From Phytophthora colocasiae (lineage: Eukaryota; Oomycota; Peronosporomycetes; Peronosporales; Peronosporaceae), in contig JAGKQI010000100.1 in assembly GCA_018806915.1 (NCBI GenBank), positions 2,170,001 to 2,234,000 of the forward strand: a stretch of 64,000 bases of DNA. The letters run 5' to 3'. The notes below the pieces were generated by a model. It made no database searches, had not been told where the DNA came from, and saw only the letters and a program-made list of their open reading frames with translations. Numbering within the stretch: position 1 is the stretch's first letter; each line of letters opens with the position of its first letter. Of the stretch, positions 18,096-43,945 are shown piece by piece. The position numbers and the translations under genes are program-made.

Positions 18096-18100
18096 TGTGG

Positions 18101-22455: not shown

Positions 22456-22504
22456 CCTGGTAGCACTTTGTAGTCCGTCCCACGACCGACTGCTGTTCGT
22501 TCGT

Positions 22505-23299: not shown

Positions 23300-23315
23300 G
23301 TCACTATGCACGCGA

Positions 23316-24984: not shown

Positions 24985-25424
24985 ATGGATCGCTCTGCCG
25001 ACGTAAGTTCTTCCGCGTATGCTACGGTGTTCTTCGGCCAAGATCGCTCTGCGGCTCAGCCTCCATGTCCCCATTGTGACCGAGCTCCCTCTGATCTCGC
25101 AGCGGCGGCGACTCCAACGGTTCCGGATCTGGATCCTGTGTATGCTGCTGTTGCTTCTCTCCAGTCTCTCTCGGATGGATACGCTGAGATGCAGGCTAGC
25201 TACCAACAAGTGCTCCGGGATCTCACTGCAGCGCGGCGCCATAATGAAGAGCTCGTCTAAACCTCGCCCAAGCCTTCATCGACTTCGCGCAGCGTCGGTA
25301 TGATGTCTTCCTAGCTGCCCTTCGGCAGGCGAAACAGAAGGAAGCGGAAGCGGTGCAGGATCTGGATCGGCTCAAGGAGCATTTGCGTGACTTCGACACT
25401 CTCAAGCTCCAATACTTCGGAGAT
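24985..25424 (+). pseudogene. gag: Family D Gag, coiled-coil type, truncated
   Basis: The ATG at 24985 opens MDRSADVSSSAYATVFFGQD. A CxxC pair (PPCPHCDRAP) and a heptad-rich helix (YAEMQASYQQVLRDLTAARR) follow. After a one-base shift near 25255 the helix continues: FIDFAQRRYDVFLAALRQAK, EAVQDLDRLKEHLRDFDTL. It stops matching at about 25424, where sequence of element B in the opposite orientation begins. This shows what the gag at 19237 looked like before the C insertion. The role is inferred as capsid-like from its place right after the LTR. Confidence 0.65.
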
Positions 25425-28111
25425 CCTCGATCTGCACTTCGACCGTCGCCGTCACAACCTCTGGCAGCACCGCCATTTCCTTCTCGAGATCCTCCGCGTA
25501 GGATCCACCATTCTCGTGGACCATCGTCGACGTGATCTTCCGTGTTACTGGGGTCCGGCCGAGACTCAGCAACGGGATCCGCTCTTCTGACGACATGTTC
25601 GACTGGGCAGAGACTCCTGGATCCGGCTGGGCACCAACCTCGAGATCCGGCTGGGATTCAGCCACGAGATCCGGTCGGGATCCAACCACGAGATCCTTGT
25701 CTGAGACGTCCTTATGATCTCCATGTCCTGACGCTGAAAACGGATCCTCACTCATCTCCACTCCGGGAGGATCACTGGCTGTTAAATGGCTACCAGGATC
25801 CAGCTTTCTTGTGGCGGGATCCGGTCCACGAGCGGCACCTCCTTCGGCAGGTATACCAACTTCACTTCCAGCTCCCAAAACCATTCTCACGGCGGGATCC
25901 TCCTTCGACGCTCCACACCCAGCTCTCGGATCGTCCTCTGGGGTCTTCATCGCTTCCACGTACGTCGTCGTCCGTTGGTCCAGCTCTCCTTGTGCCGTCA
26001 CGCCTTGATCTGGCTTCCCTGGGTCTTCGATCTTGCCTTGGCACGCACCATCGTCTTCACTTTGTCGAGGCGCATCTGTAGAACCCTTGGTACACGCGTG
26101 GATCGCCCTGGGTGCCTCGCAATCGGCGGCGCCCTTCCTGCTGGCCGTCTCCGCCGCTCGCTCATATTTGTGTGAATATGATGAGCTCAGATCCCCACTA
26201 AGTGCGGAATCAGACGACTGTTCAGACCTGCCCCGTCCTTGACCCGTGTCGCATGTGCGACACTGATCTTCAAGCTGTGTCAGGTAAGGATCCGACTTTG
26301 CTTGTAGATGGCGTTGGGAGGCACCTCATTTTGATCAGGCGCGTAAAATGGTAGCTCTCCGAGCTCCTGGGCATTCCTGTGAGCTTCAGGGCACTCCGAA
26401 ACCTTGGATCCGACTGTGCCATCTGAGTGATGGTCACCTGTCCCATGATTATGGGGCGACCCTTCGGCATCATTGTTCCGGCTCTGTGCAGAGACAGGGC
26501 AGCCCTCCGGATCTTCAAGGAGGCGAGTCGACATGGGCCCTTCGGCTTCTAGAGCTCCGTTTGAGGCATGCGATGGCTCGTTAGACGCGCCTTGCCTCGC
26601 GCTGCACGCCCATACCAACCGTGGCAGTGGAGCACGAATATTCGCCCCAGGGCGCCCCAAAACGTCATCTCCGACTGATTTGTCGGAGTGATTGTCGTCG
26701 CCCGTCGCACGGACATGCTGCCGATCCTCAACGGTGGCGTCCAGTCTCTGGCCAGAGACAATACACGTTGCCGGATCTTCAATCAGACAAGCTGAAGAGG
26801 ATCCGGAGGATCCTTGAGCCTGTGGATCTCGGATCCGGGCGCGTGAGGACGCCTCTTGGTCCGATGAGGCTGGCGCAGCATCCTTTGCGGCCTCTGGTCC
26901 AAATTGGATACGGCGGTGCGCTTGTAGCTTAGACGTTGACGGATCGGATCCGTCGGACTGGATCCTGTCTCGCCAGTCGACCGTTCCTTCAAGGATCCGG
27001 TCCGACGTAGGTGGCGAGCCGGGGCAGCGTGACACGACAGCGGTGTGGACGGGGCGCTTCAGGATCCCTCTCGGCTCGGCGTACTTCGGCCGATCCACCG
27101 CCGGCTCAAGCTCCCAAGGCTCCTTCGGACGCGGTGGCGGCGGGATCTCCGTCGTGGCGCTCATAGCAAGGTTCTGCCACTCGTTGTAGCGCCGGGATCC
27201 GACGGAAATGAAACCCGGGGTGCGAGGAACGTGATCCCCGGCCAGCCACATGCCGATCTCCTCGTTGTGGTTGAGGGAGACCGATATCTCACCGACATTG
27301 GTAAGTTGTAGATAGCGGATCTTGCCTGGACCTTGTGCTAACGTTGGTACCCATTGCTTGCCTCTGCGTAGCCACAGCTTCTCGTACTCCTTGAGATGGA
27401 TCCGATCCGGATGCCGTATGCCTTCTTGGAGGAGTAGCGGGCGAGCCCGGCCGCTGAAGATCTGCCGTTGTCCATGGAGTCGCACACGGATCTCGTCATG
27501 CAAGCACACGGATCCGTCGCCCAAGTCGAGTCGGATCCCGGCCGGTACCATGAAGTCCATACCGAGGATCGCGTCGCAGTCGGGTGGAAGATCCTCGCCG
27601 ACCCAGACATCGCAGAAGTATACCAAGTACCCAGCCAAGGTAACTTTAATCCTTGTTTTGCCTGCTGCAATGTACAACTGCTCACCAATTCCGAGGCATT
27701 CTTGTGTTTGACTAGTGTCAATCTGGGATCCAACCTTACGAGCAAAGGCGGCATCGATTATCGACACCTCGGATCCCGAGTCAAGAAGCACGGTGGACTT
27801 GGCGTTGTTGATCTTGCACGTTGCCTTGGCCTGCTTGAAGTGTTTGCTGGGGGCATGGTACTTCCAGTACCCGCGTGACTCTCCAGGCATGAGATCCAAG
27901 GACATAGCGATCTCGGATCTCTGGTATTCATCGCCTGAAGAGCGGAAGCTTGCAACTCTAGCCGTACGTTTCCCATGAAGTTCACATGTATTATCCAATA
28001 GATCCGTTCGCTTGTTGCTAACTTGATCCATGGCCTTCTTGTTCACATATGCATAGATGTAAGACGTTGAACGCTCGTCTCGTACCGGATTCAAACCCGG
28101 CGAGCGTTCTA
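25425..28111 (-). pseudogene. pol: Element B Pol N-terminal part: protease and long linker, RT missing
   Basis: The minus-strand frame is open from inside the frameshift site through 26280. After VNKKAMDQVSNKRTDLLDNT comes the aspartic protease: VLLDSGSEVSIIDAAFARKV, CDAILGMDFMVPAGIRLDLG and VCLHDEIRVRLHGQ. A very long Ser/Pro/Asp-rich linker follows (about 26280-27200), then frame changes and a second low-complexity frame (25402-26001) ending VEVQIEDLRS. Such a block normally leads into RT, but the element is cut here by family D gag. No catalytic RT, RNase H or integrase motifs remain. Confidence 0.75.
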
Positions 28112-28118
28112 GTTTAAC
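28069..28118 (-). promoter_or_regulatory. -1 ribosomal frameshift signal between element B gag and pol (copy 3)
   Basis: G TTA AAC (28112-28118) precedes the gag TAG (28109-28111). Slipping back one base at AAC would join Gag to the pol frame, which stays open across this point and reads LERSPGLNPVRDER. Immediately after lies a 9-bp stem (arms 28101-28109 and 28069-28077) containing an inner 6-bp stem at 28085-28100. GUUAAAC is used as a shift site by equine arteritis virus. This copy has the longest pol behind it. Confidence 0.75.
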
Positions 28119-30280
28119 ATCTTCTCGGCAGCTTCTGGAAGCATGTGCTTACTTGGGTCGAACCACTGCCGGATGAGGTTGTAGAACTCCTCCATCTGGC
28201 ACTTGCCGTGATCATGAAGTTCTCCGCAGTCGCGACATACGAAGAAGCAGCGATCCGACGAATGACCCCTCTTGCCGCATTTCTGGCAGGTGAGACGCTT
28301 CCAACAGCCAAGATCCGAATGTTTCCTGGATCCGCAGTGCGAGCAGCGCTGCCCTTCGTTGGAAAAACGCGGTCGACGATCCTGTGGCACTGGATCCGAG
28401 CTGGCTTGGGTTGGATCCGGATCCTTCTTAGGATCCGAAGTTCCCGTCTTGGTCTCTGTTAATCCGGCTGTCGTCGAGGTAATCGGTCGCTCACTCGAGG
28501 CTGCTACGTATGCTCTGCGAAGCTCACCATCGGATCCGGAGTCCTCGGAGTCAGATCCCTCAGATTCTACAATTTGCATGGAATGGATCGCACGCGTCGG
28601 ACCTGTTGGCTGCGGGGCCGTCGTGGTCTTCGGCCGGAACTTGCTGGATCCTGACGACGGCTTCTTCTGTCTGGATCTCGCGTGATCTCAGGCCCGCAGT
28701 AGGTCTTCGAGTTGATCCGCGTCCGCAAGTCGGAGTAATGTCAGTTGGTCTGCCAGATCTGCATCCCCAAGCGTCTCGATGAAGTGCTCGACGTGCTCGC
28801 GGCGGGCTTTGGCATCTCCATCCTTGATCATCACCCTCGCACGGAGACCTGCTACGTTCAAACGATACAAGTATTCCAGTGGCGACTCATCGGATCTTTT
28901 ACGAGCGTGGTAGTATTGCCACGCCACCGAGACTCCAAGGCCACAGTACTGCGTCTGGAAGGCTTTTAGCAGATCACTCCACTTCAGCCTTGTAGATCGA
29001 CTGAGCTATCTGTACCAGTTTCGCGCTGGACTAGTGAGGAGATCTTCAAAGGTAAGGCACTTTTCTTCGTCCGATGCTTGATCTCTCGTGAAGGCTGACT
29101 TGACTTTACTAATCCATGATCTTGCTCGTTCCTCGTCGTGATCCTTGCCCGTGAACTCCTTCAGGTCAAATATTGCACAGATTCGGATCCGTTGAATCGT
29201 GCTAGATCCTGCCGTAACGGATGCAGTCGCCGTACGCCGGGGAGCCAATCCGTCAAGGTCGTCAGGGTCATACTCCCAGTTCTCAAAGTGTGACCCTACT
29301 GACTCCATCTCGACGTACCGATACACAGGATCTACAGCTCGCGTCGTGGCTCGTGGGACCGCAGTCATCTGCTGTTCCTTCAAGAATTTGTCCATGGCCG
29401 ATTGGAAGTAGGTTTTCAGCCTATTGGTGGATGCATGCGGCGGATCTATGGCACGGGGCTGATCACGCGAGGCGTTCAACGTTCGTGTCGGCTTGATCTC
29501 CGGGACATCCGTCGGCATACGGGCTGCCAGCATCGCAGCACCTGTAGGGCCGAGCGCCATCCGTCGAGGTTCGGACGAAATGTTGGATCCTGCTTCAGAT
29601 TCCGCCGAGGCGTATCGAGAGGATCCAGTCTGATACTCAGGGGACGTTAGCTTGGACATCGGATCTCGGATCGCTCGTCGTTCACCGACGAGGGGCTTCA
29701 GTCGGTTGAATAGCGAAGCCGCTGCGATACGGATCCTGTCGTGGTCCAATCGGAAGAGGAAGTTCCAATCGAAAGCTCCTGCCGCGAAACCAGCTTCCTT
29801 TAGAAAGCGGAGGAGGTCCAAGGCGCTGTCTAGACTGTTCGTAGACTGCGCCGGCGCCGTGATCGGGCCGGTGAGGGATCCAACAAACTGGGGTTGTAGG
29901 ATCCTCATCACAGGGTCTACCCGGAGGAAGTCTTTGAGCGCGATCCAGCGATACGAAGCCTCCAGCTGGGTCGACGACCACTCCGATTTCACCACCGGCT
30001 TCTCGTCGACATCAGATCCTGGTGCCCTCAGCTTCTTCCGCGCAGTCTTCGTCTTCTTCTACGACGTTTTACCACCTGAGATCTGCGCGGGGGTGGTGGT
30101 GGTGGATGAAGATCCAACAGCTTTCGCTGCTGAATCCCCACCCGGCGGATCAGAACTCGCGTTCCGATCCGCGGGGGTCCCAGAAGGGACCTGGAGAGGA
30201 GGGGGAGGTTTTTCTTCCGAGTCTGTTGCCAAACTCGCCTCCTTCCTGTCGACAGAGCTCCTCCTAGAGCTCCGCCGATC
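28109..30280 (-). pseudogene. gag: Element B Gag
   Basis: Reading the minus strand from about 30280: a Ser/Pro/Thr-rich N terminus with one in-frame TAG (near 30058). A 329-codon frame (29006-29995) follows, with a Gag capsid core SARNWYRQL. After frame changes the core continues as VAWQYYHARKRSDESPLEYL and YRLNVAGLRARV. An acidic linker (VESEGSDSEDSGSD) and three zinc knuckles end it: CSHCGSRKHSDLGC, CQKCGKRGHSSDRC and an irregular CRDCGELHDHGKC. The order capsid, nucleocapsid, stop, frameshift site is a standard retroelement Gag. Three or more frameshifts and a stop inactivate it. Confidence 0.8.
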
Positions 30281-30384
30281 TGTGGATCTAGCGTTTAGCG
30301 GTGCTGACGGCGATCAAACGACCGTCGGCACTTCTTCTGCCGGTTCTTCCTTCACTTGTACAGTCTCTTCGGACTCACGGTGAT

Positions 30385-30415
30385 ATCCTCGGTTCGAATC
30401 CGGGCACGCGCACCA
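30385..30415 (-). promoter_or_regulatory. Candidate primer binding site of element B, or tRNA 3' fragment
   Basis: The plus strand carries a complete tRNA T-arm: stem CTCGG (30388-30392), loop TTCGAAT, stem CCGGG (30400-30404), then CACGCGC, A and CCA (30413-30415). Read on the minus strand it starts TGGTGCGCG, as a PBS does, and pairs with at least 28 bases of a tRNA 3' end, beyond the 18 usually copied. It lies between element B gag and the D LTR, 6 bases from the LTR. No matching 5' acceptor arm exists upstream, so a complete tRNA gene is not supported. Confidence 0.5.
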
Positions 30416-30421
30416 TTAAAG

Positions 30422-31358
30422 TGTAGTGGATCCGCTGGAATGAGCAGGGATCCAACGTTCACACACGGCGCCCAGACACTGACTAACGGAGGGGGTACTC
30501 CGATAACCGTGGGGTTGCGGAGGCTCACCTTGTGTACCCGTCAGTGGGCGGGATCTGCTCTTTCAGGAACGGGAGAGTGTACACAGGCGTGAGGGCTTGA
30601 ACGTCCTTGGCGGGGACTTGGGAGGTTGGACTTGCGTGGGGGTTCTTGCACACAGGTCCTGGTTGGGGGGATCTTGGTCTTGGACTCGAAGATCGTGTGG
30701 ATCCTTGGATCCGGGGTTGCCTTGGTGGGTGTGGACTTCCTTTTCCTTTCCTTTACTGTCTTGCTTACCGCCTCCTGTAGCGGTTGGTGGTTGAGATATT
30801 GAAGGATCCTACGTTTAAGCAATCAACGCCGTGGGATTCGGGGTCTTCACTGCGTAAGGTAAGCCGGCCAAATCGGAGATCCGGTCTTAGCTGTAGCTAG
30901 TTATGCGAAGAAACTTGCAGGAAGACTAAGGGGAGGCCAATACACTATCCTCTTCCCTTGTCTTAGGTCCTGAAGAAAACCACTTGCGCACTAGAAGGTA
31001 AATTCGACTCTCAGATTTGTGGTTAGCCAGTTTCTCATCCTGTACCGTATCTTCCCATCGCAAATCCGAGGATCTGGTATCTGGATCTGAAGGTCTTGGA
31101 TCTTGAGTATCCGACGTCTGGATCCGAGGATCTTGCGTCTCAAGGATCCGCACTTAGGATCGCGGGATCCGCACTTAGTTAGGACTGTGGAATCCGAACT
31201 TAGGTCAGCCAGGCCAAGTGGATTCTGACTTAGGGTCCGCCCTGGAGTAGGTACCCAGTTCTAGGGACCTGTCCTTATCGTAGCGCCATGTCGCACGTAA
31301 ACCATCATCGTAGTAATTTTGCGTCATATTCGGCTTGATTTGAATCCACTTCACTACA
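30422..31358 (+). repeat. Family D LTR, plus orientation
   Basis: TGTAGTGGATCC to TTCACTACA, 937 bp; about 110 bases shorter than 18101-19147. Its orientation is opposite to element B on its left and the same as element E on its right. It cannot be the 5' LTR of B. It may be a solo LTR or the 5' LTR of E if E belongs to family D, but the sequence just after it does not match the D leader at 24884. Confidence 0.75.
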
Positions 31359-31730
31359 GATCTGCCCGGGTCAAACGAGGCTGGGCGCTTTTAGTGCGAT
31401 CGTGTGGAGTCTCCCTGGTTGGACGCCGAACGCCTTATGGTCAACGAGGCAGAATACAACGGGCTCCTCTTAGGCCTCGATATGCTCGCGGGTCGGGATC
31501 GTCATCGCCTTGTGATCGGTGGTGACTCAAATCTCGTGATCCGTCAAGTTCGTGGCGAGATCGATTGTAAGGCGCCAGGATTAACGATATTGAAACAGAG
31601 TACACTAGATCATCTGAAGTGATGGAGCGATCACGAGCTGGTTCATGTGAAGAGAGAGAGACTGGAACGGGAGTGCAGACAGCCTAGCAAGCGCCGCTCT
31701 ACAACGCCAAGGCGGGATCGAGGTTCGAGG
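31359..31730 (+). pseudogene. pol: Element E second (plant/archaeal-type) RNase H
   Basis: Plus-strand reading shows NEAEYNGLLLGLDML, LVIGGDSNLVIRQVRGEID and, after a stop and frame change, DHELVHVK and then ADSLASAALQ. The Glu in EAEYNGL, the Asp in GDSNLV and the Asp in ADSLA are the acidic positions of RNase HI of the RVT_3 type. Ty3/gypsy elements with this additional domain are known from plants and oomycetes. The N-terminal strand with the first Asp is missing. Confidence 0.65.
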
Positions 31731-32345
31731 CGAGGAAGATCAGCAGGATCTAGTCACCTTAAATCGACTAGACGAGATCCTGATCCCCAAAACCGAAGAT
31801 CAGGTGGTGCGAGTGGCGGCAGTGGCTACACGAGCTACTCGGACAAGATCGGATGCCGCCGTCCTACAAGAAGAGTTAGTCAGAGCAGTGAGGATCGATT
31901 GAATCATGCGGGCGCAGGACGAAGAAACTTAGATCGCCGAATTGAAGAAATACCTGATCAGGCCGATCATGGACATCACTTAGGCAGAATCGCGATCCTA
32001 TAGCAAGATCGCGTCCGACTACGAGGTGGACAGGCACGATCTACTTTTCTACTGTCCTCCACGCCGAGATCGGACGTCGATCAGGCCCGACTGATGAAGC
32101 TGGTGATCCCAGAGACGCTACAACTGGATGTCCTGCACCATTATCATACGACTCTCGAAAGCGGACACCAAGGAATCGGACGTACCTAACAACGGATCCG
32201 GAGTCACTTCCAATGAAAAGGACTTTATCGGAGTGTGCAGAGGATCGTGGGGGAATGTGTGGATTGCAAGACAGGAAAAGGTAGACCCACTATCCAAGGC
32301 TAATCCCCACGAAATTTGCAAGCAATTTACCCGTTTCAGATTATA
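31731..32345 (+). pseudogene. pol: Element E linker and integrase zinc domain
   Basis: Several frames give VRVAAVATRATRTRSD, LVRAVRIDRIMRAQDEE (then a stop), IAELKKYL, and then LLFYCPP. The HHCC domain reads LHHYHTTLESGHQGIGRTY and ECVDCKTGKGRPTIQG. The sequence continues YPFQIIA, the strand just before the first catalytic Asp, and there the integrase core breaks off. Confidence 0.7.
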
Positions 32346-33067
32346 GCGACGGGTAGGATCCGAGATCGACGTTGGAGGCTACGATACCAGTCGGGTCTAC
32401 AAGGCACCACGATCGTGATCCTCGACGATGGCAATATAGGATCCAAGGATATTACCAACGGTCACGGGAACAGGTCAATGCCCGATCGCGGCAAGCGATC
32501 GCTAAACGAGCTGATCAACATAATGAGGGGATTGATCCTCACCGGATCGAAGCCGGATCCCAAGTTTGGCTGTACTTGGATCAAGTGAGAGAAGGTTACG
32601 GGCGCAAGTTGGCACACCTGTGGCACGTCCCGTTCCGAGTAGCCGAGAAGATTAATGAGTTCACGATCAAGCTGGAGGTTGCGGGATCGGGATACCACAT
32701 ATTCCCGATAGTTTATGTCTCGAGGCTGAAGCTAGTGCGGAATTTCCTTGACCGACCCCGTGTCGAGCTGACGGTAGACGAGGCCGATCACCAGGATTTC
32801 GACGAGACCCTGCTGCCAGAAGATAGTTGGAGCCTGGATCTAGAGGCTGATGAGTATGAGGTCGAACGAATTTCCGATATGCGGTGCGGGAAAAGGACCC
32901 GCTATGGCAGAATCTACCGGGAGTTTCTGGTGCATTGGGTCGGCTACGACAAACCGACCTGGGTCGATGAAGCTAATCTCAACTGTGAAGCTATACTGGG
33001 TGCGTTCCTGCGGGATCACGTGAACCGAAACCGGTTTGGCGTGATGCAGTCGCACGAAGAGGTGTAG
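32346..33067 (+). pseudogene. pol: Element E integrase C terminus and chromodomain after a core deletion
   Basis: The frame resumes with DPRSTLEATIPV and continues REQVNARSRQAIAKRADQHN, IEAGSQVWLYLDQVREGYGR, FPIVYVSRLKLVRNF and a chromodomain (YEVERISDMRCGKRTRYGR, FLVHWVGYDKPTWVDEANL). It ends GVMQSHEEV at 33067. About 200 residues holding all three catalytic acids are missing at a single joint near 32356. The rest of the frame is clean, 231 codons. Confidence 0.8.
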
Positions 33068-33402
33068 GTGGGTTGCTTTACCGTGATCGAGGAAGCTGAT
33101 GTAGAGAAAAATCCAAATCAGGGCGAGAATTGTATATTTGTGTATATGCATGTGAGCAGGGAATTTGACGTTGGAGAAAGGTGATCCTGAATGTCAAGAT
33201 GGGGATGAAGGAGGATCAAGCTCTCAAAACGATTGAGTAGGATGGGAATGACTATGGGAATGGAGATTACGAGAATTACGAACGGATTTCGAGAATTACG
33301 AGTGGAAATGTGAAGTATGCAGAACAACCCTAGCTGGGGATTCTGGGTCCGGACCAGGGGAGAAACCTCGCGCCTTGTTGCAGGTGATCGCGGTTCCGGC
33401 AG
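33068..33402. other. Element E 3' region and junction with element F
   Basis: No gene. A loose GGGAATG/GAGAATTACGA repeat occurs at 33240-33306. The purine-rich run at 33355-33365 could be a PPT, but no LTR follows. The switch to minus-strand family F sequence lies at about 33330. Confidence 0.35.
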
Positions 33403-34467
33403 TTAGAAGTCCAAGCACGACTTACGGGGAGCAGGAGAAGGATCGAACTTACTGAGGAGGCGGGGGATCCTGGTAGCGGGGTGGTTGACTGGCTCATTCC
33501 GATACTGGTTACGCCACGGATCCGCCTCATCGTACTCCTCCAGAGCCTCGATCAGGTTCGCTGGCTCAGGAATGTTCGCGTTGGGATCCGCCCGGTTGGC
33601 ACGCCGAGAGACCACACCGGGATACCAACGAACAGCATCCACTGCGGGGATGGGGAGGTGGAGGAATAACGGATCCAGTAAGATGTCGAGGTCGAACCAC
33701 TGATTGCACATCATGGCGGGGAAGGAGGCGAGGAATCGGCGCCAAGCAGACCCAGCGCGACCCCGTCTGGACTTGCGAGCAGCATAATACTGCTGCAGCT
33801 CGAGATCCGCGGCTTGCATGGCAGAAGTGATGTCGAGATTGTGGGTGGCCTACCAAAACGCCTGACGATGCCGTTCTTCCAGGACGCGATAAGTGACAGC
33901 TAAGGCCGCGAGGGGCGTTCCCTCCCTCTCATGTAGGTCGAGGTTGAACGTGAGGGGCCCTGGGTTCGCGAAGTCGTTCCACGGTCCCGGGCCATCAGAT
34001 CAAGCTGATGGCCCACGCCCGTAATCAACTCGTTAAGATAGTCGGTGCCGGGAGTCGGTGCAGGTCCAACCTGTATCCGAGAAGGGAACAGCCAACCCGA
34101 GGAGATCAGCAACCGTTTGGCCAAAGAGTTGGCGATCAGGCCCACGATCGAATATTGCCGATCACCTGTGGGTCCCATGGTTCGATGTCTCCCGCCGTGA
34201 AGGTACGTTGCCGATCGTAACCCGGGATGAAAGAGGCGACAGGGAACAGAGGTGGTTGGAGCCCGAGAGGCGGAGAACCGCCGAGAGGAGGCGACGGAGG
34301 AGGTGGCGGTGAATCTGGGGAAGATCCTGAAGGCGACAGGTTCGACCGTCCGGAGATGGGCTTGATCCGTCCGGAGACCCCGATCCACGAGCGCCAGAAG
34401 ATCTGCCTTTCGGAACCTGGCCGAATTCTCGCCGAGCTGATGAGATAGACCGTTGCCGAGCCATGCG
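33403..34467 (-). pseudogene. gag: Family F Gag, C-terminal half
   Basis: Continues the F Gag that begins at 45660. Removing element C joins EDDDAL (43946 side) to RMARQRSISSARREFGQVPK (34467 side) across one TAGGG. Going down the minus strand, frame-shifted pieces give FIPGYDRQRTFTAGDIEPWD, LNELITGVGHQLDLMARDRG and AVTYRVLEERHRQAFW. A clean 138-codon frame (33403-33819) follows: DLELQQYYAARKSRRGRAGS, AMMCNQWFDLDILLDPLF, LIEALEEYDEADPWRNQ, ending KSCLDF. I do not recognise a named domain. The assignment as Gag rests on continuity with the coiled-coil part behind the F LTR. Confidence 0.6.
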
Positions 34468-34472
34468 TAGGG
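34468..34472. repeat. Target site duplication of element C, left (TAGGG)
   Basis: TAGGG directly before TGTAATGGG; repeated at 43941-43945 directly after CCCCGTTACA. Confidence 0.9.
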
Positions 34473-34931
34473 TGTAATGGGTCTACCTAGACCTATTAGG
34501 TGGCGTACACGTGCGCTTACGTGTATGAGGAAGCGTGCAATTAGAATAGACTTAATTTAAGTATACTTATTTAAATAAGTATATTAAATCAAATATATCT
34601 AAATTAAACTGCAAATTACCGTAAAATGAGAACTGTTATTGAATTTGGCATAAGCCAATTATGGACCTCCTAAAACTGTTTGTTATCTATTTCTAAAGGG
34701 TCTGCCAACGTGTGGTTGGCAGAAACTCTGCTCAGTGATTGGTAGAAATCCGTTACTTTCTACCAATAATATGCACAAATGCACACGAACCATCCAATAA
34801 TGTGGTTCGCCCATGTATCCATTGGTGTGTACAGCACACCAAGGTCTGAGGCCCATTTCCAACCTCTAACAGTTATCCTAACTGTTAGAGTTACAAGTGG
34901 TACAACCACTTGTACGTGTAACCCCGTTACA
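34473..34931 (-). repeat. Element C 3' LTR
   Basis: On the plus strand TGTAATGGG to CCCCGTTACA, 459 bp. It differs from the 5' LTR mainly by a short CCATGTAT insertion near 34812 and a missing A near 34582. Nearly the whole LTR consists of successive hairpins. Confidence 0.92.
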
Positions 34932-34944
34932 CCATCCCCCCGTT
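34932..34944 (-). promoter_or_regulatory. Element C polypurine tract
   Basis: Minus strand AACGGGGGGATGG ends immediately before the 3' LTR start TGTAACGGGG. It is the expected plus-strand DNA primer position and fixes the element orientation. Confidence 0.65.
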
Positions 34945-35032
34945 AAGATTCGACGTGTCGGTCTCGATACGTCAATCAACAGAACTTGACAAGACCGTCA
35001 AGTTCCCGAGAGAAATCCGAGTGCATTTCGCA

Positions 35033-36580
35033 ATGGACTCGCCAACGCCCACGTCTCCGTCCGCTACTGCGGACGCGCAAGCCTCACCTGCTGCCTCTGC
35101 AGCAGGAACAACGACCTCAGCAGTGCCCACTAGCACTGCTGCTTCCAGCGGTCCGACAGAGAAGCTCTCTGTCACAAAGTACCATGCTCTCCATAAGGAG
35201 AAGCATGAGAAGAAGAAGAAGTCTTCTTCTCTAGCAGAGATTAAGAATCCTGCTGTCCCTCTCAAAGAACTCTTTGGAGAGGACTACGAAGACATCCTCG
35301 ACTATGAGGAGGATGTCGAGGAGGGGGAGGTTGTTGTCAAGGCTCCCGCTCCCGTGTCTTCGTCTGAAGACACGTCAGACCCACCCGTGGGATCTCGACG
35401 ACCTCGTGATGAGGCCTCGGACGCTTCAAGCTCGAAGCGTCCGCGCAGTGATGATGAAGCGTCCCCCATGTCGAGGGCGCTCACTGCCCCGCGCACTGAT
35501 CCGCCAGTGCGCACACCATGGATGCCTACTGAGGCTGAGATCCATGACCGGTTCGGTGCAAGTTCACCACCGAACCCGATACTGTTGTACTCATGCAACA
35601 GTATCAACGACGACGACGTCGCCGCTAAGGTTGTCTTTGAGTCCGAGACTCAAGGACGCGACTACTATATCGGACTCTTCCACGAGCTCCGATACTATGC
35701 AGCGAAGAAGACTTCGCGCAAGAGCAAAGTGCCAGAGTGGCAGGCACTTTGTCAGTCGTGGAATGCCTTTGTTGATAACTTCAACAAAGACCCGAAGGCG
35801 TATCGCGAGCGCGTTGCTGCGGCTCGCGATCGCTACTACACTTACACTACGCGTGGTAAGTGTGAACGCCTCCATGATCAGTCCATGGAAGCGGGGATCC
35901 CATGTGCCGTTCCCTTTGGCACACCCTGTCCGTGTTGACAACCTTTGGCAACACGTCTCACCGAAAGTGATCTCCTGGGGTACACGGTCGTCCGTGTACC
36001 CGATCACATCAAGGAACTCCGTGGTCGTATTGTGCCACGCGAAGCTCCGAGTGCTGTGGCTGACCGCAGCACTCCTCGTGCAGGGTTTAACCCTGCAAGT
36101 TATGGTGGGCTTCGTACGCCCTCACCATTTCCGGAACGTCCTCCATCAGGACGTTCGGCGGCTTCCATGTATCTCGATGGGGAGGAAATCCTCTCCAACG
36201 AATACGAAAACGAACCCCTTGAGAGTTCGTTCTCTTATGAGCCACAATCCGCTCAACAATCCAGCGGATCGCTCCACGCGCGTCGCGCAACGGCGGCGGA
36301 GGGGGTGGGAACACTCCCTCCGCATGGTCAACACTATGACCATGACGATCGTGCCCTGCACGATCGAGTTGCTGCGCTGGAGCAGACACAGAGCGCTGAG
36401 ATAGCTGCTCTGAAGCAGGAGGTTTGTGTCCTCCGTGCTGAGGTCTGCGAGGCAGCTCAGACTGCCTCGAACCTCTCGTCCGGTCTTGAGACGAGAGTGA
36501 ACCGGTTGATCGACCGTGTCGACGGTCTCGAGAAGGCCTTTCAGGCCTCTCGCACTCCTCAGTCGGACTACCAACCCTAG
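35033..36580 (+). pseudogene. Antisense reading frame in the 3' part of element C, one stop
   Basis: On the strand opposite to gag-pol, an ATG at 35033 opens a frame that runs 516 codons to 36580, broken only by a TGA at 35936-35938. A GTG start 26 codons upstream is also in frame. Features in order: a Ser/Ala/Thr/Pro-rich N terminus (MDSPTPTSPSATADA), a Lys-rich patch (KEKHEKKKKSSS), an acidic run (EDYEDILDYEEDVEEGE), a basic nuclear-signal-like patch (SSKRPRSDDEA), a mixed region that looks folded (WMPTEAEIHDRFGASSPPN, LLYSCNSINDDDVAAKVVF, YYIGLFHELRYYAAKKTSRK), and a C-terminal coiled coil (DRVAALEQTQSAEIAALKQE, ETRVNRLIDRVDGLEKAF). The last 494 bases overlap the integrase chromodomain frame antisense. 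Function unknown. Extra antisense frames at this position are known in some plant Ty3/gypsy elements. Confidence 0.6.
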
Positions 36581-38084
36581 GTAGTCCGTGCTGCACGTAC
36601 GGCTTCAACCGCCCGACGTAGAAGGTCGGGTGGAGCCTCATGCTGGACGGTATGTCCAGCCGGTACGCGTTGCCGTGCCGTTCAAGTGCTTTGAACGGCC
36701 CAATGAATCTTGGAGCAAGCTTGCTTGCTCCAAAGTCAGACACTGCATGTCTAGGTAGGTTTTGTGTAGCTAACAAAACTAATGAACCCTTTTCGAATTC
36801 ATTTGTGTTGCCTCTACCAACAGTATCAGCGTTCAGCTTCTGTCGATCGACAGAAGCTGCGATAGCATCTTGGACAAACCGTATGACGGCTTGTCTTCGC
36901 TGGACAAAGTCTAGCGCACCCGAGCTGAATCCTTTCAGCTTGTCGCCCTTGTCAGCAGCAGGCCCTGCCTGCTCGCTATCATCTCTCATGTCTGTGCCCG
37001 GCACAGACATCGCGCTCTCGTTCCTGCTCGAACGAGACGTCGCACGCGTCACCGCAGCTGATAGTGTGCTGCTATCAGTTGCATTCTGCGGTTGTTCAGA
37101 CGCAACCGTAGATCCTCCCCCACTTAAGGAGGAAGCTACCCCGCCGAGCATGCTCGGCAATCGTGGATGCCTCATGGCGTTCACGTAGAATGGTGTATGC
37201 CCTGTCGAGGCATGCACCGAGTTGTTGATGGCAAACTCTGCCATCGGCAAGCACTCGCTCCAATGCGGGAACGAGTGAGCGTAGCTCTTCAACGTGTCAC
37301 CCAGTACACGGTTGACACGTTCGGTCTGCCCATCCGTCTGCGGATGATCCGCAGTCGACATTGATAACTGTGAACCAAGAAGTGTAAACACTTCTTGCCA
37401 GAACCGCGCTGTGAAGCGTGGATCACGGTCCGACACAATGTCGAGCGGCATGCCATGGTGTTTGAACACCATGTCAACAAACAGTCGCGCAGTCTGCGCG
37501 GCTGTAACAGTAGCCGGGACGGCAGCAAGATGAACCATCTTGCTGAATCGGTCCACAAAGACAACGATGCCCGTCCTCCGCTTGCTGTCAGGCGGAAGAC
37601 CGAAGACAAAGTCCATGGACATGGACTGCCAACACTCCGACGGAGTCGGTAGTGATTGAAGAGGAGCCTGCGAGAACTGCGCAGGCTTCACGCGTTGACA
37701 AACCTCGCAAGCACGTACGTACTTGCGCACCCACTTGTACTGGTGGTGCCAGTAGAAGTCACGCGTGAGAAGAGTGTATGTCTTCTCACGACCCGGATGC
37801 CCTGCCGTGGGGGCATCGTGATACTCGAACATGATCCTCAACCGGAGGTCATGATCATTCGGAACGACAATGCGATCCGCATTGTCGTCTACTGCACTGT
37901 ACAACAGTAGGCCGTCGTGTACACGATAGCGGTGTACACGAGCTCGAAGATGAGGGGTTAGCTTCCGACGTGCCACGTCGGAAGGTGCTGCGAGGGACTC
38001 CAGCAGCCCCTTCGCGTCTGCATCCCTTGCATACGCGTTCTTCACGTCGTCAATCAACGTTGACGACGGCACACTTGTCCTCAC
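36087..38084 (-). CDS. pol: Element C integrase with chromodomain
   Basis: A 665-codon uninterrupted frame. The zinc domain has H89, H95, C126 and C129. The core has D158 (SMDFVFGLP), D219 (VSDRDPRFTARFW) and E255 (TDGQTERVNR). The spacings of 60 and 35 residues are typical of DD35E integrases. The GPY/F module (FIGPFKALERHGNAYRL, HPTFYVGRLKPY) follows, then an Arg/Ser/Gln-rich spacer. A chromodomain (ERIVAHKRTN, FRIRWRGFPPHRDTWKPP) runs to residue 665. The frame starts with GTG overlapping the RNase H stop (TCGTGAGG, 38081-38084) in a different phase, so it was probably fused to RNase H before a one-base change. All catalytic residues are intact. Confidence 0.88.
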   Translation of the reverse strand: MRTSVPSSTLIDDVKNAYARDADAKGLLESLAAPSDVARRKLTPHLRARVHRYRVHDGLLLYSAVDDNADRIVVPNDHDLRLRIMFEYHDAPTAGHPGREKTYTLLTRDFYWHHQYKWVRKYVRACEVCQRVKPAQFSQAPLQSLPTPSECWQSMSMDFVFGLPPDSKRRTGIVVFVDRFSKMVHLAAVPATVTAAQTARLFVDMVFKHHGMPLDIVSDRDPRFTARFWQEVFTLLGSQLSMSTADHPQTDGQTERVNRVLGDTLKSYAHSFPHWSECLPMAEFAINNSVHASTGHTPFYVNAMRHPRLPSMLGGVASSLSGGGSTVASEQPQNATDSSTLSAAVTRATSRSSRNESAMSVPGTDMRDDSEQAGPAADKGDKLKGFSSGALDFVQRRQAVIRFVQDAIAASVDRQKLNADTVGRGNTNEFEKGSLVLLATQNLPRHAVSDFGASKLAPRFIGPFKALERHGNAYRLDIPSSMRLHPTFYVGRLKPYVQHGLPRVGSPTEECERPERPSRDRRHGRSTGSLSSQDRTRGSRQSELPRRPQHGGHKPPASEQLSQRSVSAPAQQLDRAGHDRHGHSVDHAEGVFPPPPPPLRDARGAIRWIVERIVAHKRTNSQGVRFRIRWRGFPPHRDTWKPPNVLMEDVPEMVRAYEAHHNLQG

Positions 38085-39594
38085 GACGCCAACAGCGTTG
38101 GCGTCGTCTCCGCATAGTCAGGTCGACGCGATAACGCGTCGGCCACTACATTGAGTCTTCCGGGTTTGTACTCCACCCGGAAGTTGTACTCCGCGAAGAA
38201 GGACAACCATCTCGCCATACGTTGCGAGATGTGCGGCGACTTAATCGCCGTACGCAATGATGCGTGGTCTGTATAGACCACGAACGGTCTACTCCCAAGT
38301 AGATACACTCGGAACTTTGCGAGTGCATACTTCATGGCAAGGAGCTCCTTGTCATGTACGGGATAGTTACGCTCAGCTGGCTTCAGCTGACGCGATTGAT
38401 AGTAGACTACACGATCACGCCCTTCGTGATCGTGTTGCATCAATGCACATCCGATTGCAAAGTCGGATGCATCGCACACTACGTGGAATGGACGATCTTG
38501 GTCCGCCACGGCCAAGATCGGCGCTTCAGTCAAGCCCTGCTTGACTGCACCGAATGCCCCCTCGCACTCGGTCGTCCAAATCCACTCAGCTTCTTTCTTA
38601 AGAAGCTGTGACAACGGGCGAATCTTGCCCGCATAGTTCTCCACGTACTTGCACAAGTACGTGGCAAGCCCAAGGAACTGCCTCAGTTCCTTCACATTGG
38701 ATGGCGTGGGCCATTCATTGATCACTCTGACCTTCTCTGGGTCAGGGCGCACGCCGTCTTTCCCCACGAGACACCCCAGCACGGGTATCTCGCTCGCCCC
38801 GAAGATACACTTCTTCAGGTTCGCATAGAGCTTATGTTTCCTCATAAGCTCCAGCAGCATACGGAGATGCACCTTGTGCATCTCAATGTCCGTCTTCCCG
38901 TTCACAGCCCGGCTGTGGACGAACACGTCGTCGAAGTAACTCGGTGCGAAGTCGCGCACCGAGCGCAATAGATGCGTCACACATCTATTGAACGTTGCAG
39001 GGGCGTTCTTAAGCCCCTGTGGCATTACGAGCCACTCCCAAAGCATACCGCTTGGAGTGCTTACCGCTGTGAGAGGGATGTCCCTCTCACGCATGAGGAT
39101 TTGATAGAATCCATCACGCAGATCAAGAGCACTGAAGATAGTGCTCAAGGCCATCGAATCGATGATAACATCTTTTCGCGGTATCGGCGTCTGCGCCGGT
39201 ATCGTCGCATCGTTCAACTTGTTGTACGCATGAACGATGCGCCAGCCGCCCTGTGGTTTCTTAACACAGAACGTTGGGGCACTGTGCGGGGACTTTGATT
39301 CCCGCACTTGACCTGCAAGGCGACGACTTTCAAAGAAGTCGTCGATCGCTTGAACTTGTTCACGCGGCAGTGGCCACTGCCGTGTAACACAGTACTTCGT
39401 GCCCGGCACGAGATCAATCTCGTGCTGTACGCCCTTGTCCTTCGGAAGCTCCGAAGGAATCTCGTCCGGGAGTACATCCTTGTACTCCCGCAGAATCTCG
39501 TAATAGGGACTCGACTTCAACGAGTCCCAACTCTACTCCTCGAAGCGTTGCTTCTTGGTCTTCGCACTGAGGGAGTCATCACCCTCAGTGATCC
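38081..39594 (-). pseudogene. pol: Element C reverse transcriptase and RNase H
   Basis: The open frame (479 codons, 38081-39520) contains the RT fingers (APTFCVKKPQGGWRIVHAYN), the first catalytic Asp (FSALDLRDGFYQ, residue 133), LVMPQGLKNAPATFN and the YFDD box (residues 195-198). The thumb (LGCLVGKDGVRPD) and RNase H follow, the latter with D350 (VVCDASDFAIG), E392 (HDKELLAM), D418 (YTDHASL) and D461 (VADALSRRPDY). Upstream the same frame continues across a TAG at 39533-39535 (FEE-stop-SWDSLK) to the solo LTR at 39595. Precise removal of that LTR would make protease and RT one frame apart from this stop. Confidence 0.88.
39591..39594. repeat. Target duplication of the solo F LTR (ATCC), left
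   Basis: ATCC precedes TGTGGTGG and recurs at 40963-40966 after CACCACA. Collapsing the two restores the codons ...VVDG, ITEGDD... of element C Pol. Confidence 0.8.
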
Positions 39595-40962
39595 TGTGGT
39601 GGAGCGGATCTGGCCAAAATCTGGTTGAGGCCGATCGCGATCGCCACTTGCGCCCAGACACCGACTAACGGAGGGGGTCCCCCGATGATCCGTGATCTTG
39701 TTGCGTGTAGTGTTCACCTTGTGTACCCGTCGGTAGGCGGGTTACGCTCTTCCAGGTAACTTCTGAAGATGTCTTGGGACGAGAAGAAGGTCTTGGGTGA
39801 CGCAGGGGTTTGAGGCGGCGTGGAAGTTCTTCACTCCACCTCGGGGTACTTGATCCCGGTCGTAGGCGAGTTCTCGAGCCTTGATCCGGGTGCCTGGTTC
39901 TTGATCCAGGTCTTCCAATAGTCCAATGTTCGGGATTCAGTCCCTTCCTTTCGTTGTTTTCCGCTTCCGATAGCGGGGGTCTTGAGGGGGCGAGATTCGA
40001 CGGGATCCTTAGGCTAAACAACCAATTCCTTCCGATCCGATGTATGCACTTAAAGGATAGTTCACTAGATAGGGCAAAGCTGGCCAATATATTATCCAGA
40101 CTTAACCGCTATACTAGGTCACGTATCCTTACCTTCCTGACGCTTGTAGGGCCAATGTAGTTCCCGGTTCCAGGCGTAGCGAAGACACTTGAGTGGTTCA
40201 GGGCAAATTCGAGTCTCTTTATGGTTATTCCTATGCCTACTAATCCCATCCTGATTTACTATCCTACGATCACACGACACTGGCTACAGAGCTGATACCT
40301 AGCTTGATTCCCCTAACCCTGATCTTGAGCCGATTCCGTACTTAACCGAAGCTTGATCTCGCACTTAACCGAAGCTTGATCTCGTACTTAACCGAAGCTT
40401 GATCTCGCACTTAACCGAAGCTTGATCTCGCACTTAACCGAAGCTTGATCTCGCACTTAACCGAAGCTTGATCGCTGCCTGATCCCGCTTGGTGATCCTT
40501 CAAAGAATCCGGATCAGGCCACAAGAAGAGTCTGCGTCGCGCCTGGGGTTGACCTTGACCCGGAGCTGATCTCGTACTTATACGGGAGAGGATCATTGCG
40601 CGATCTTGCGTGATCTCGCTTCGTCGCCGCCCGGGGAAGTTGGATCGTGCTGTTAGAGGTTTCGGGGCGCCAGGGTAAGCTGATCATGCTCGCTTGGGGC
40701 CCCGTCATCGTTGATCGCGCGAGAACATCCTTGATTTCCCCATTCTTCCTCCGGCAGGATTCGGATCACCCACGAACACCGCTCCACCTGCTTCTTCGCC
40801 GGTGTCTCCGTTGCCTGTTCCCGGCGGGACCCATCGTACCTTCGTCTGATTCGACCCAGATCTGGCGATCACAGGTCCCCCTTGTCGCTCGTTCCGACTC
40901 TATTCGGGTTCGTGGCTGACATCGCCTCTCCGGGAAAAATTTTTTTCGTCCGCTTCACCACA
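39595..40962 (+). repeat. Solo family F LTR inserted in element C pol
   Basis: 1,368 bp with perfect TGTGGTG/CACCACA ends, a 4-bp target duplication and no internal region. It sits between protease and RT coding sequence in the opposite orientation to element C. This is the cleanest definition of the F LTR ends in the window. It probably arose by LTR-LTR recombination after a full F insertion, so F was active after C had inserted. Confidence 0.9.
40340..40473 (+). repeat. 23-bp minisatellite inside the solo F LTR
   Basis: Six consecutive units of ACTTAACCGAAGCTTGATCT followed by CGC or CGT (starts 40340, 40363, 40386, 40409, 40432, 40455), the last one incomplete. The other F LTRs have no such expansion at this place. 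Confidence 0.9.
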
Positions 40963-42524
40963 ATCCCATCGACGACGAGCTGCTTCAGCTCTTCGGCCTC
41001 GCGCTCCACTCTCTCGATATCCGAGAGAATGCAAATTTGTTCGATGCGTCCATCGTACAAGTCTCGTGCGAAGCGCTTCCAACTCATCGTTGGAAGTGCG
41101 GTCAACGCCGACGCACTCGTCGGCGGATTCTCCAACCGCATCCTCTGGTACTGTAACCCAGTACCAGTACGTGTCAAGACGTTCAACGTCTCGACACTCG
41201 GTGTCTGCACTGCAGATACACCCGTCTCAGTCCCGGACTGAGACTCGCAAAGCTCCCTGAGCTTGCGCCGCGAAGATCTACCGTGGAGCCCGGCTCCAGG
41301 TGCTCCACGTCCAAGGCATCGCACCTTGGACGGGACGTTATCGCAATCGTCAGCGGACTCCTTCCACTGACTCGCACTGTCAAGCCCTGCTTGAGTGCCG
41401 CTCATCGCGTGCAGCGCTGCTGCACGTGAGCACGCAGGTTGTTCGGGTGCTGGGCGTTTGCAACCGCCAGCACCTCCTGCCGCGCAGTCGGTTCCCTCAA
41501 CCGCTGCGCCTCCATCCGCTCCCGGAGCGGATGAAGCAACCGCATCGTCGACTCCCGGAGTCGACGTGCTCTCGCTAGCTTCCTGCGCTAGCGAGTGTTT
41601 GCTTGTACACATATCGTCAGCTCCCAGAGCTGACGCACGATCGCTAGTTCCCGGAGCTAGCAGCGACGCGCCAGTGGCGTCAGCTCCCAGAGCTGACGCA
41701 CGCCTTTCGGTTCCCCGAATATTATTTGCTTCGTCAACTCCCAGAGTTGACGCGACGTCGTCGGCGCGACCCTTGGAGGCTTGAACTACCTCCAAGGATA
41801 CCGGTAATACCGGTATGTTACCTTCTCTCAGGTGAATCGCATTCACCTGACCATCACTCATGTGACAAACATCATTCAGATGTTTACGCGTCAGGTGATT
41901 CACATTCACCTGACCATCACTCATGTGACCGCGACCCTTCGGCTCAGATTTCTGAGTCGACACACATTTTCTCACACCGACTCCCGGAGTCGTTGATGGT
42001 CGCCGGCGGCGATCGGAGGCAGCAGCGGCCGCCGCTGCCTCAACTGGGGATCCACATGCACCGGCCGGTGCATGTGCAGCACTGACAGGGCCATCGCTCT
42101 CTGTCGCGCATGTGTTGTTGAAGCGTACGAGCGTACGCTTCTCCCAGTTGATCACCGGGTCATGCCGTGCAAGCCACGGCATGCCTAATACCAAGTCGAA
42201 CTTATCGTCTAGATCCAAGACGATAAGATCTTCTACAAACGTCCTTCGTTTGTAAGAGAAGCGCACACGGACTACGCGCTTCTCAGTCCTCACGGTGGCA
42301 CCCGTTGCCAACCGCACCTCCAACACGCTGCGAGGCGTGTCGGCCTCTTCGAAGTCAAGCCTTCGAAGACTTCCCTGTCGAACAAAGTTGTTCGACGCGC
42401 CCGAGTCCACTAGGGCACGAAGAGAGTTCACTCTCTTCGACATCACGTTCAGGATGACAAGGTTTGGCTTGTCATCTTGCAGCTTACAGCGAGAAACCTT
42501 CTCGCTGGGGGCAGCAGTCCTCAT
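40963..42524 (-). pseudogene. pol: Element C protease and linker
   Basis: The minus-strand frame starts at about 42524 (residues MRTAAPSEKVSRC) and holds the aspartic protease motif ALVDSGASNNFVRQ, then LATGATVRTEKRVVRVRFSY, DLDDKFDLVLGMPWLARHD and VINWEKRTLVRF. A 250-residue linker with imperfect repeats (ASALGADA, TPGVDDA, APGADGG) follows. Each of those repeats is itself a hairpin at DNA level. Just before the solo LTR come helix-rich residues DIERVEREAEELKQLVVDG. The frame is open for 520 codons and then runs into the LTR. Confidence 0.85.
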
Positions 42525-43435
42525 CGTCGCGTGTCCAAGCTCGACACGCGAGACTGCATCACCAGTAGGACGCCCCGCGCCTACTGGTCCTTAGCGTTTT
42601 TTGAACGCCCGCCCGCCATGCACTCGCGTGCATAGTGACCGATGTTAGTACACTTGTCCTTCCGTCTTCACAACAGGACGCGCCGGCTTCGGCGTGTTCG
42701 GATGGAGTCTAGCTTGACGCCGGCTAAACTCCTCTTGCATCGCAAGGCTGATCGCCTCCTCGAGAGTATTCGGATACTCTCGGAAGAGATACGTTTTGAC
42801 GGGACCATCTCTTAGTCCCTTCATGAACGTGACGACCTTGGTCGCCTCGTCGATCGGGTTGGCCACTATGTTCGATACCAAGTATCGAGCACGCTGGGCA
42901 AAGGTGTGAACATTATCCTTGCCCTGCTGCAGATCGAGAAACTCCGTTCTCGATCTGAACTCGTTCTTCGGAGGCTCGAACGCAAGTTTGAGTTCCTCCT
43001 TGAACACCGCATACGTGCTGAAGAACGTAGGATCCGAGAGTCGGCGCCATCGGGTCGACGATACGTCGAGCCGCAATGGCTGTGTCGAGTTCGACAAGCC
43101 AACGAAGGAGGGTCTCGTCCTCCTTCCCCGTGTAGGTACTCACGTGGAGTTTCAACGACTCCACGCGTGGCTTAGGGGAAGCCACCGAGGCAGCAACATC
43201 TCGTTGCTCCTTAACAATGTACCCCAGAGCAACACCGTGTTGCTCTGTCGGCGATAGCGTACGAAGCATCGTAGCTACCGCTGCCTCTCCAATGACTTTG
43301 TGAAAGTCTTTGGAGAGCTTCCCACTCTGGATCTGACAGGTGGGCACAGTCCGTGCGCGTCACGGACATTTGAGGGGTCCCAGCGGATCCCTCATCCATT
43401 GGGGAGTTCTCTACCCCGCGTTCGTATGACTCCAT
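42525..43435 (-). pseudogene. gag: Element C Gag, frameshifted
   Basis: The ATG at 43435 opens MESYERGVENSPMDEGSAGT. A one-base insertion in the CACAAAGTC run (about 43300) shifts the frame relative to VIGEAAVATMLRTLSPTEQ; the array units from 47104 onward lack that base. The frame changes again near 43020 to the capsid core (TYAVFKEELKLAFEPPKN, DLQQGKDNVHTFAQRARYLV, TLEEAISLAMQEEFSRRQAR). A degenerate zinc knuckle, KCTNIGHYAREC, keeps only one of the first two Cys. Function by analogy: capsid and RNA packaging. Confidence 0.75.
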
Positions 43436-43466
43436 ACGAACGAACAGCAGTCGGTCGTGGGACGGA

Positions 43467-43482
43467 CTACAAAGTGCTACCA
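43467..43482 (-). promoter_or_regulatory. Element C primer binding site
   Basis: Two bases inside the 5' LTR the minus strand reads TGGTAGCACTTTGTAG. The first eight bases fit the 3' end of initiator-Met-type tRNA (PBS TGGTAGCA); the rest does not, so the primer tRNA is uncertain. Confidence 0.6.
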
Positions 43483-43484
43483 GG

Positions 43485-43940
43485 TGTAATGGGTCTACCT
43501 AGACCTATTAGGTGGCGTACACGTGCGCTTACGTGTATGAGGAAGCGTGCAATTAGAATAGACTTAATTTAAGTATACTTATTTAAATAAGTATAATTAA
43601 ATCAAATATATCTAAATTAAACTGCAAATTACCGTAAAATGAGAACTGTTATTGAATTTGGCATAAGCCAATTATGGACCTCCTAAAACTGTTTGTTATC
43701 TATTTCTAAAGGGTCTGCCAACGTGTGGTTGGCAGAAACTCTGCTCAGTGATTGGTAGAAATCCGTTACTTTCTACCAATAATATGCACAAATGCACACG
43801 AACCATCCAATAATGTGGTTCGCTCAGCCATTGGTGTGTACAGCACACCAAGGTCTGAGGCCCATTTCCAACCTCTAACAGTTATCCTAACTGTTAGAGT
43901 TACAAGTGGTACAACCACTTGTACGTGTAACCCCGTTACA
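43485..43940 (-). repeat. Element C 5' LTR (also the C LTR of array unit 1)
   Basis: 456 bp, plus strand TGTAATGGG to CCCCGTTACA. It is followed by the TAGGG target duplication (43941-43945) and F gag. The copies in units 2-6 sit in the same F gag position. Confidence 0.92.
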
Positions 43941-43945
43941 TAGGG

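Follow-up and report, generated by a model that had tools for sequence, protein, structure and literature searches.

The closest described counterpart of a nucleic acid folded along its whole length into short stem-loops is the genome-scale ordered structure (GORS) of RNA viruses. In its parts on coronaviruses, PMC7642675 describes consecutive stem-loops, lower diversity where sites are paired and pairings that are not homologous from one relative to another, and gives a folding-energy difference of 15% for SARS-CoV-2 and 23.4% for the vertebrate-virus record. Among oomycete retrotransposons, the passages of PMC5348765 on the chromodomain element Chronos do not mention hairpins. Among the titles and abstract openings listed by searches of an open-licence library, no description of end-to-end hairpin tiling of a retrotransposon was found. 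Here, a stretch of 64,000 nucleotides from Phytophthora colocasiae (the window; assembly GCA_018806915.1, contig JAGKQI010000100.1, positions 2,170,001 to 2,234,000, forward strand) was analyzed. Its element C, which is classed as a Ty3/Gypsy retrotransposon with long terminal repeats (LTRs) by its LTRs, its domain order and similarity searches with its reverse transcriptase (RT), is tiled with short hairpins everywhere outside one insert. The best-supported reading of this pattern is an extreme form of GORS.

A perfect hairpin was defined, unless stated otherwise, as a stem of at least 7 bp with a loop of at most 10 nt. The element labels A to H of the first-pass annotation could be mapped only partly, and density was measured by bins and segments. 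Insert-free 1-kb bins of C contain 10–21 hairpins, compared with 0.2–1.2 in 15 dinucleotide shuffles per bin. The left part of C holds 94 hairpins in 5,120 bp and the right part 52 in 2,975 bp (0.6 per kb expected in each), which corresponds to about 17–18 per kb outside the insert versus 0.6 in shuffles, and to about 150 hairpins in total. In contrast, no hairpin was found in the 1,372 bp of the insert (39593–40964). Element A (85–5034) has only 2 in 4,950 bp. The segments 7390–18790 and 25100–34400 contain 9 hairpins in 11,401 bp (0.8 per kb, 0.6 expected) and 13 in 9,301 bp (1.4 per kb, 0.7 expected), and the non-LTR part of a tandem unit contains 1 in 3,101 bp. The remnant at 6942–7389, to which the same habit had been ascribed, has 3 hairpins versus 0.18 expected and no convincing blastn match to C, which leaves that ascription weak.

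The tiling had been claimed for all parts of the element, and this was observed: the LTR, gag, middle frame, pol, antisense frame and 3′ region carry 17.5–23.7 hairpins per kb and the chromodomain part 12.7, and all of these values greatly exceed those of 100 codon-preserving and 100 dinucleotide shuffles. The comparison with codon-preserving shuffles that the first-pass annotation had proposed gave 57 hairpins in pol versus a shuffle mean of 3.35 (maximum 9), 28 in gag versus 2.03 (maximum 6) and 27 in the antisense frame versus 2.26 (maximum 6). All six hairpin sequences that it had quoted as examples lie exactly where it had placed them. The tiling is also found in all of 20 aligned rows, which are the window copy and 19 copies fetched from the source assembly (92.5 Mb, 105 contigs), with 15.2–18.6 hairpins per kb in every row.

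The stems of the window copy are most often 9 bp long (48 seen, 0.25 expected) and never longer than 13 bp. The loops are mostly 1–8 nt, and the loop excess spans 0 to about 10. There is about one hairpin per 55–60 bases when stems of at least 7 bp are counted, and one per 42 bases when 6-bp and one-mismatch stems are included. Imperfect stems are also in excess. In the genomic copy L009, 118 perfect stems of at least 8 bp (2.1 expected) are accompanied by 47 bulged stems (8.3 expected) and 34 one-mismatch stems (4.3 expected). Overlap is avoided, with 7 overlapping hairpin pairs in C compared with 39.5 under random placement (range 28–54). Among stems of at least 9 bp in pol, 5 lie in the codon phase with the fewest silent choices versus 14 and 11 in the other phases; no such avoidance was observed for gag (6, 6, 6) or the antisense frame (6, 8, 4, constrained phase first). 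A stability set-point was considered for C and rejected, as it vanished once the arms were re-dealt among hairpins (3.16 versus 3.17). Hairpin-free gaps of another copy, L017, lie at element positions 448–491, 222–332 and 3478–3596, one of them after the LTR end and another within the LTR. The gap after the LTR end contains TGGTAGCA..., which resembles a tRNA primer-binding site.

Variation among the copies was then used for comparing stems with other sites. Shared variants were taken to have passed through source elements, and private variants to be mostly post-insertion mutations. Rates were obtained from 16 rows with at least 7,000 aligned bases, each row defining the hairpins in turn and the defining row being left out. 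As had been proposed, stems are less variable than loops: shared variants per site are 0.022 in stems, 0.071 in loops and 0.041 outside. The private variants per site are 0.096 in stems, 0.091 outside and 0.138 in loops. At third codon positions of pol, with L009 as the hairpin definer, 0 shared and 32 private variants were found at 327 stem sites, versus 61 shared and 63 private at 691 sites elsewhere (Fisher 1.6e-8). Third positions of gag have shared variants at 3 of 87 stem sites versus 31 of 231 others, and the LTR and leader have 2 shared and 32 private variants in stems compared with 14 shared and 58 private outside. Shared variants are thus depleted in stems and private ones are not, indicating that the hairpins are maintained during the active life of the element. 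At positions kept by 48 related proteins, the residue of C is different in 7 of 118 full-stem codons versus 21 of 353 others. We conclude that the pattern is maintained mainly by purifying selection on pairing; its origin is less certain.

Across species, stem codons in the protein search are not significantly more conserved than others (0.875 versus 0.806, p 0.096). Reverse-translation covariation in up to 49 proteins of the C lineage shows no overall difference (0.9620 matched versus 0.9615 shuffled), and among 30 hairpins it is higher in 4 and lower in 4. The copy L041 (93% to L009) was considered as a diverged lineage and rejected, because its private differences are even over codon positions; it appears to be a decayed copy.

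The folding-energy difference was calculated from non-overlapping 350-nt fragments with 20 dinucleotide shuffles, which follows the scheme of the GORS paper only approximately, and reached 35.8% for the sense and 43.3% for the antisense strand of C (23 fragments each). Against codon shuffles, the value for pol was 30.4% (8 fragments). Element A and the region 11001–18000 gave −3.5% and −0.9%. In forty 200-nt pieces of C, the two strands have equal absolute RNA folding energies (sense −85.6, antisense −84.8 kcal/mol), so part of the antisense surplus may come from the baseline of the shuffles.

The first-pass annotation had noted stem changes that keep a G.U pair. Its example, GAGCAACAC, holds in the sense strand, but G.U is not favored overall over A.C or other mismatches. 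Stem mismatch variants of the G.T, A.C and other classes number 22, 19 and 29 among shared variants and 80, 78 and 116 among private ones (chi-square p 0.93). Mismatches fixed across copies lean to A.C over G.T in the sense strand at three cut-offs (12:5, 24:12 and 30:14; p 0.065 for 24:12 and 0.023 for 30:14); on the minus strand, these A.C mismatches read G.T. The absence of a G.U preference together with the A.C lean suggests that the selected object is not simply the sense RNA. An RNA genome as the selected object, as had been suggested, is not established, since the signal is symmetric between the strands, with at most a lean to the antisense. The data are better matched by both strands, or by the minus strand, than by the sense RNA alone.

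C also carries a convergent antisense gene, located between pol and the 3′ LTR with an overlap into the chromodomain part of pol. It is open over 515 aa in L017 (6325–7872, minus strand) and L009 (6377–7924, minus strand), and only shorter frames are present in the window. The product has a coiled-coil-like C-terminus and no Pfam match above the cut-off. Among 7,990 proteins scored, 497 are related to it at E <= 1e-5, and all but three of the 120 matches listed are from Phytophthora. Outside stems, its shared variants fall on 22 of 214 third positions versus 7 of 231 and 10 of 234 at the other two. Third positions are thus the most variable, as in a coding gene. Since this convergent gene is conserved, transcripts of both strands of C are likely.

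Four related families in the same genome, 61–69% identical to C where their pol sequences align, show graded habits (stem counts are from one copy per family). S1 (L029) has 137 stems of 5 bp versus 56 expected and 49 of 6 bp versus 14, with none of at least 9 bp. S2 (L053) has its stem peak at 6 bp (22 versus 5.2 expected). L051 and L052 show a moderate excess at 7–9 bp, with stems of at least 7 bp at 5.4 and 5.7 per kb where about 1 is expected. Two of the four families therefore have shorter stems than C. The folding-energy differences are 10.2% and 15.4% for S1 (sense and antisense), 29.3% for S2 and about 5% for L051 and L052. Element A is near expectation, with 0 hairpins in the RT frame and 3 in the integrase frame when loops up to 12 are allowed. 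When pairs of C are changed in the four families, they stay Watson-Crick in only 8–10% of cases, and the hairpin positions are not shared. The stems of S1 close into loops of 3 and 4 well above chance (67/108, 35/69), and into loops under 3 nt only as often as chance predicts (35/113, 16/82, 7/31). This minimum loop of 3 nt points to real single-strand folding. True double changes between two S1 groups amount to 3 pairs. A first count of compensated variants in S1 (49 of 77 shared stem variants) was rejected, as these were mostly variants creating hairpins present in few copies. Elsewhere in the window, 26001–27000 has 6 hairpins versus 0.66 expected, at the end of an aspartyl-protease frame (26283–28094, minus strand), and possibly belongs to another family with a mild habit.

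A mechanism can be proposed from these data. Purifying selection in the active life of the element would keep the sequence of C in a form that folds as short hairpins, the selected property being, as we infer, the local self-pairing of its single strands. Stems of perfect Watson-Crick pairs would form equally well in a sense transcript and in the strand complementary to it, as suits an element with a conserved convergent antisense gene. Self-paired strands would be poor partners for the 21- and 25/26-nt small RNAs of the host and for each other, and the silencing of C would be blunted as a result. Phytophthora transposable elements are indeed named as sources of 25/26-nt small RNAs in the part of PMC3804510 that concerns them. 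The reading as a whole, selected local-folding hairpins with shielding as their most likely benefit, has about an even chance of being right. As the main function we tentatively prefer shielding, which would keep small RNAs off both strands and the two strands off each other, with a chance of even or a little less. A broader form, in which selection keeps all single-stranded forms folded (sense RNA, antisense transcript and minus-strand cDNA), is possible but rather unlikely; the roughly 150 strand-symmetric hairpins would then form an anti-annealing code, superimposed on two opposed protein codes and built separately by related families with their own stem lengths.

Several observations weigh against this reading. 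At second codon positions of pol, shared variants are in excess in stems rather than depleted (8 of 327 stem sites versus 9 of 698 others; six of the eight have two carrier copies each), and in gag the same positions have 0.039 in stems versus 0.016 elsewhere. In S1 (L029–L040), the shared/private ratio is 0.70 in stems, 0.72 in loops and 0.77 outside, without stem depletion, although this test is diluted by chance stems (56 of 137 expected at 5 bp). Related families with low structure are also high in copy number. G.U is not favored over A.C, unlike in ordinary selection on sense RNA. Closure into loops of 1 and 2 in C is above chance (20/46 and 19/35; 7/24 for loop 0), and pairing into loops of 1–2 is unusable by a folded strand, so folding does not explain it. 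Apart from the avoided overlap, the spacing of hairpins is random (coefficient of variation 0.96 versus 0.99), which leaves some 25-nt stretches uncovered and speaks against shielding. In P. infestans, the small-RNA sources with the highest activity per Mb are reported to be long inverted repeats (PMC3804510), and transposable elements of maize are reported to have more small RNAs where they have miRNA-like structure (PMC10760457).

The main rival to shielding is that the hairpins are selected for the element cycle, either for RNA packaging and compaction or for the folding of single-stranded minus-strand cDNA in reverse transcription. The structure runs from LTR to LTR, as would suit a genome rather than a single message, and both the A.C lean of fixed mismatches and the larger antisense folding-energy excess over shuffles agree with a minus-strand target. 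However, the latter may stem from the shuffle baseline, given the equal absolute energies, no loop motif was seen by eye in base counts (no formal test was made), and hairpin sets are not shared between families. This explanation is considered unlikely, though it is the strongest of the rivals.

The first-pass annotation had proposed either selection for a structured genome or mutational correction of quasi-palindromes by template switching. The first is supported by the depletion of shared but not private variants in stems, the conserved residues kept, the avoidance of overlap and the excess of bulged and one-mismatch stems. The second, in which template switching or fold-back copying in reverse transcription perfects inverted repeats and protein selection filters the outcome without benefit to the element, is disfavored. 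It would agree with stems that are strictly Watson-Crick and strand-symmetric, with pairing into loops of 0–2 nt, and with the two blocks of clustered differences that separate the S1 subfamilies. However, copying of one arm onto the other would leave many pairs with two Watson-Crick states, and the check for compensatory changes among aligned copies, which had been proposed, found such states in only 3 of 1,296 stem pairs, versus 60 shared one-sided changes. Among the minority hairpins shown, 9 of 10 differ by one base from the commonest haplotype; the tenth (L009 3052) differs by five, as template switching could produce. The comparison of donor and recipient arms with relatives gave no consistent direction, mismatched stems fixed in most copies persist, and bulged stems are in excess. 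Concerted double changes and templated multi-base tracts, the signature of template switching, were thus largely lacking among copies. This explanation is improbable, and selected structure very probably explains the hairpins.

The palindromes might instead function in the DNA duplex, where they could be protein sites or chromatin cruciforms. Strand symmetry and perfect palindromes with loops of 0–2 would suit such a role, but S1 keeps its minimum loop of 3 nt, the stem sequences are varied with family-specific lengths, and no common site was seen, though none was formally searched for; the chance of this explanation is small. A supply of small RNAs for element or host by dicing of the hairpins is the least probable explanation, as the stems of the window copy, mostly near 9 bp and at most 13 bp long, are too short for Dicer. 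The correlation of miRNA-like structure with small RNAs in maize transposable elements (PMC10760457) speaks for it.

The features of the window are collected in Table 1. The LTRs of C are about 456–459 bp long and 98.7% alike, with a 5-bp target duplication on both sides. Gag, protease, RT, RNase H and integrase follow in Ty3/Gypsy order (Pfam, frames of the window together with those of L017 and L009), and in L017 a single frame holds gag, a zinc knuckle and the protease. Phytophthora proteins are the closest protein relatives of the C RT in the similarity search, and proteins of the C lineage in other Phytophthora genomes are 80–93% identical. The scan of viral contigs revealed no relative, and Rfam (gathering cut-off) and ARAGORN gave no matches on the window. 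For P0064, a C relative from P. cactorum, the gene model omits about 123–126 nt at residues 347/348; in the copies of this genome the omitted stretch sits between both P0064 matches and is perhaps a predicted intron inside pol.

Table 1. Coordinates of element C and associated features in the window
Feature	Position	Strand	Basis
Element C, Ty3/Gypsy LTR retrotransposon with chromodomain, hairpin-tiled outside the insert	34473–43940	-	Pfam domains, LTR self-match, density
3′ LTR, TGT...ACA	34473–34931	-	98.7% match to other LTR; end bases read
5′ LTR	43485–43940	-	98.7% match to other LTR; end bases read
Left target-site duplication TAGGG	34468–34472		Flanking sequence
Right target-site duplication TAGGG	43941–43945		Flanking sequence
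Foreign insert, hairpin-free, internal negative control	39593–40964		Boundaries to within a few bases
Frame with aspartyl protease	40869–42524	-	Pfam
Frame with RT and RNase H	38081–39520	-	Pfam
Frame with integrase and chromodomain	36087–38084	-	Pfam
Antisense gene region	34955–36404	+	Window frames 34955–35938 (327 aa), 35274–36404 (376 aa)
Truncated C copy, 14.9 hairpins per kb	19361–21441	+	Sequence match to C, density
Truncated C copy, 14.6 hairpins per kb	22019–24617	+	Sequence match to C, density
Example hairpin, 11-bp stem	38641–38664	-	Sequence check
Example hairpin, 10-bp stem	39069–39090	-	Sequence check
Example hairpin, 10-bp stem	35418–35443	-	Sequence check

The insert splits the window copy of C and is absent from that site in 19 of 20 fetched copies. 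It is about 85–87% related to 9714–10410 and also, inverted, to a stretch of the 3.9-kb tandem units. In L019, a fragment of C lies next to insert-like sequence in the opposite orientation, unlike in the other fetched copies. The region 43186–64000 is a tandem array of units of about 3.9 kb (five steps of 3,907–3,917 bp), each with a C LTR stretch, and hairpins in these units are confined to that LTR part.

Sirevirus LTRs carry palindromes, which are local to the LTR, unlike the end-to-end tiling in C. Chronos, as far as its passages in PMC5348765 describe it, shares with C the Ty3/Gypsy order, the C-terminal chromodomain and an oomycete host, but has an extra archaeal-type RNase H. In the pol of C, Pfam detected none between RNase H and integrase, and the Pfam scan of L009 pol matched only the element's own RNase H models, with no second, archaeal-type RNase H. 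Self-complementary structure has been considered with small RNAs in plant transposable elements, as here, but the part of PMC10760457 on this subject concerns local pre-miRNA-like regions, whereas C shows end-to-end tiling of coding sequence with short stems.

The likeness to GORS, as the parts of PMC7642675 on coronaviruses present it, is closer. In C too, stem-loops run through coding regions, the folding-energy difference is elevated, paired sites are less variable (second codon positions excepted) and pairings are not conserved between relatives. The differences lie in the carrier, an LTR retrotransposon, in the size of the folding-energy difference (36–43% versus 15% for SARS-CoV-2 and the 23.4% record), and in stems that are short, Watson-Crick and strand-symmetric without a wobble preference. 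Wobble tolerance in the sense strand, a sense-RNA feature of GORS, was looked for in C and was not found. If the reading is true, whole-genome ordered structure would extend from RNA viruses to retrotransposons, at levels above the viral values quoted in those parts of PMC7642675. The silent sites of mobile elements could then be frozen, and dating or dN/dS on such families might mislead. With dozens of copies of the C family, graded relatives and a near-structureless element in one genome, the function of the structure becomes directly testable. Judged from its sequence, C would work like GORS, and its carrier and geometry appear to be new.

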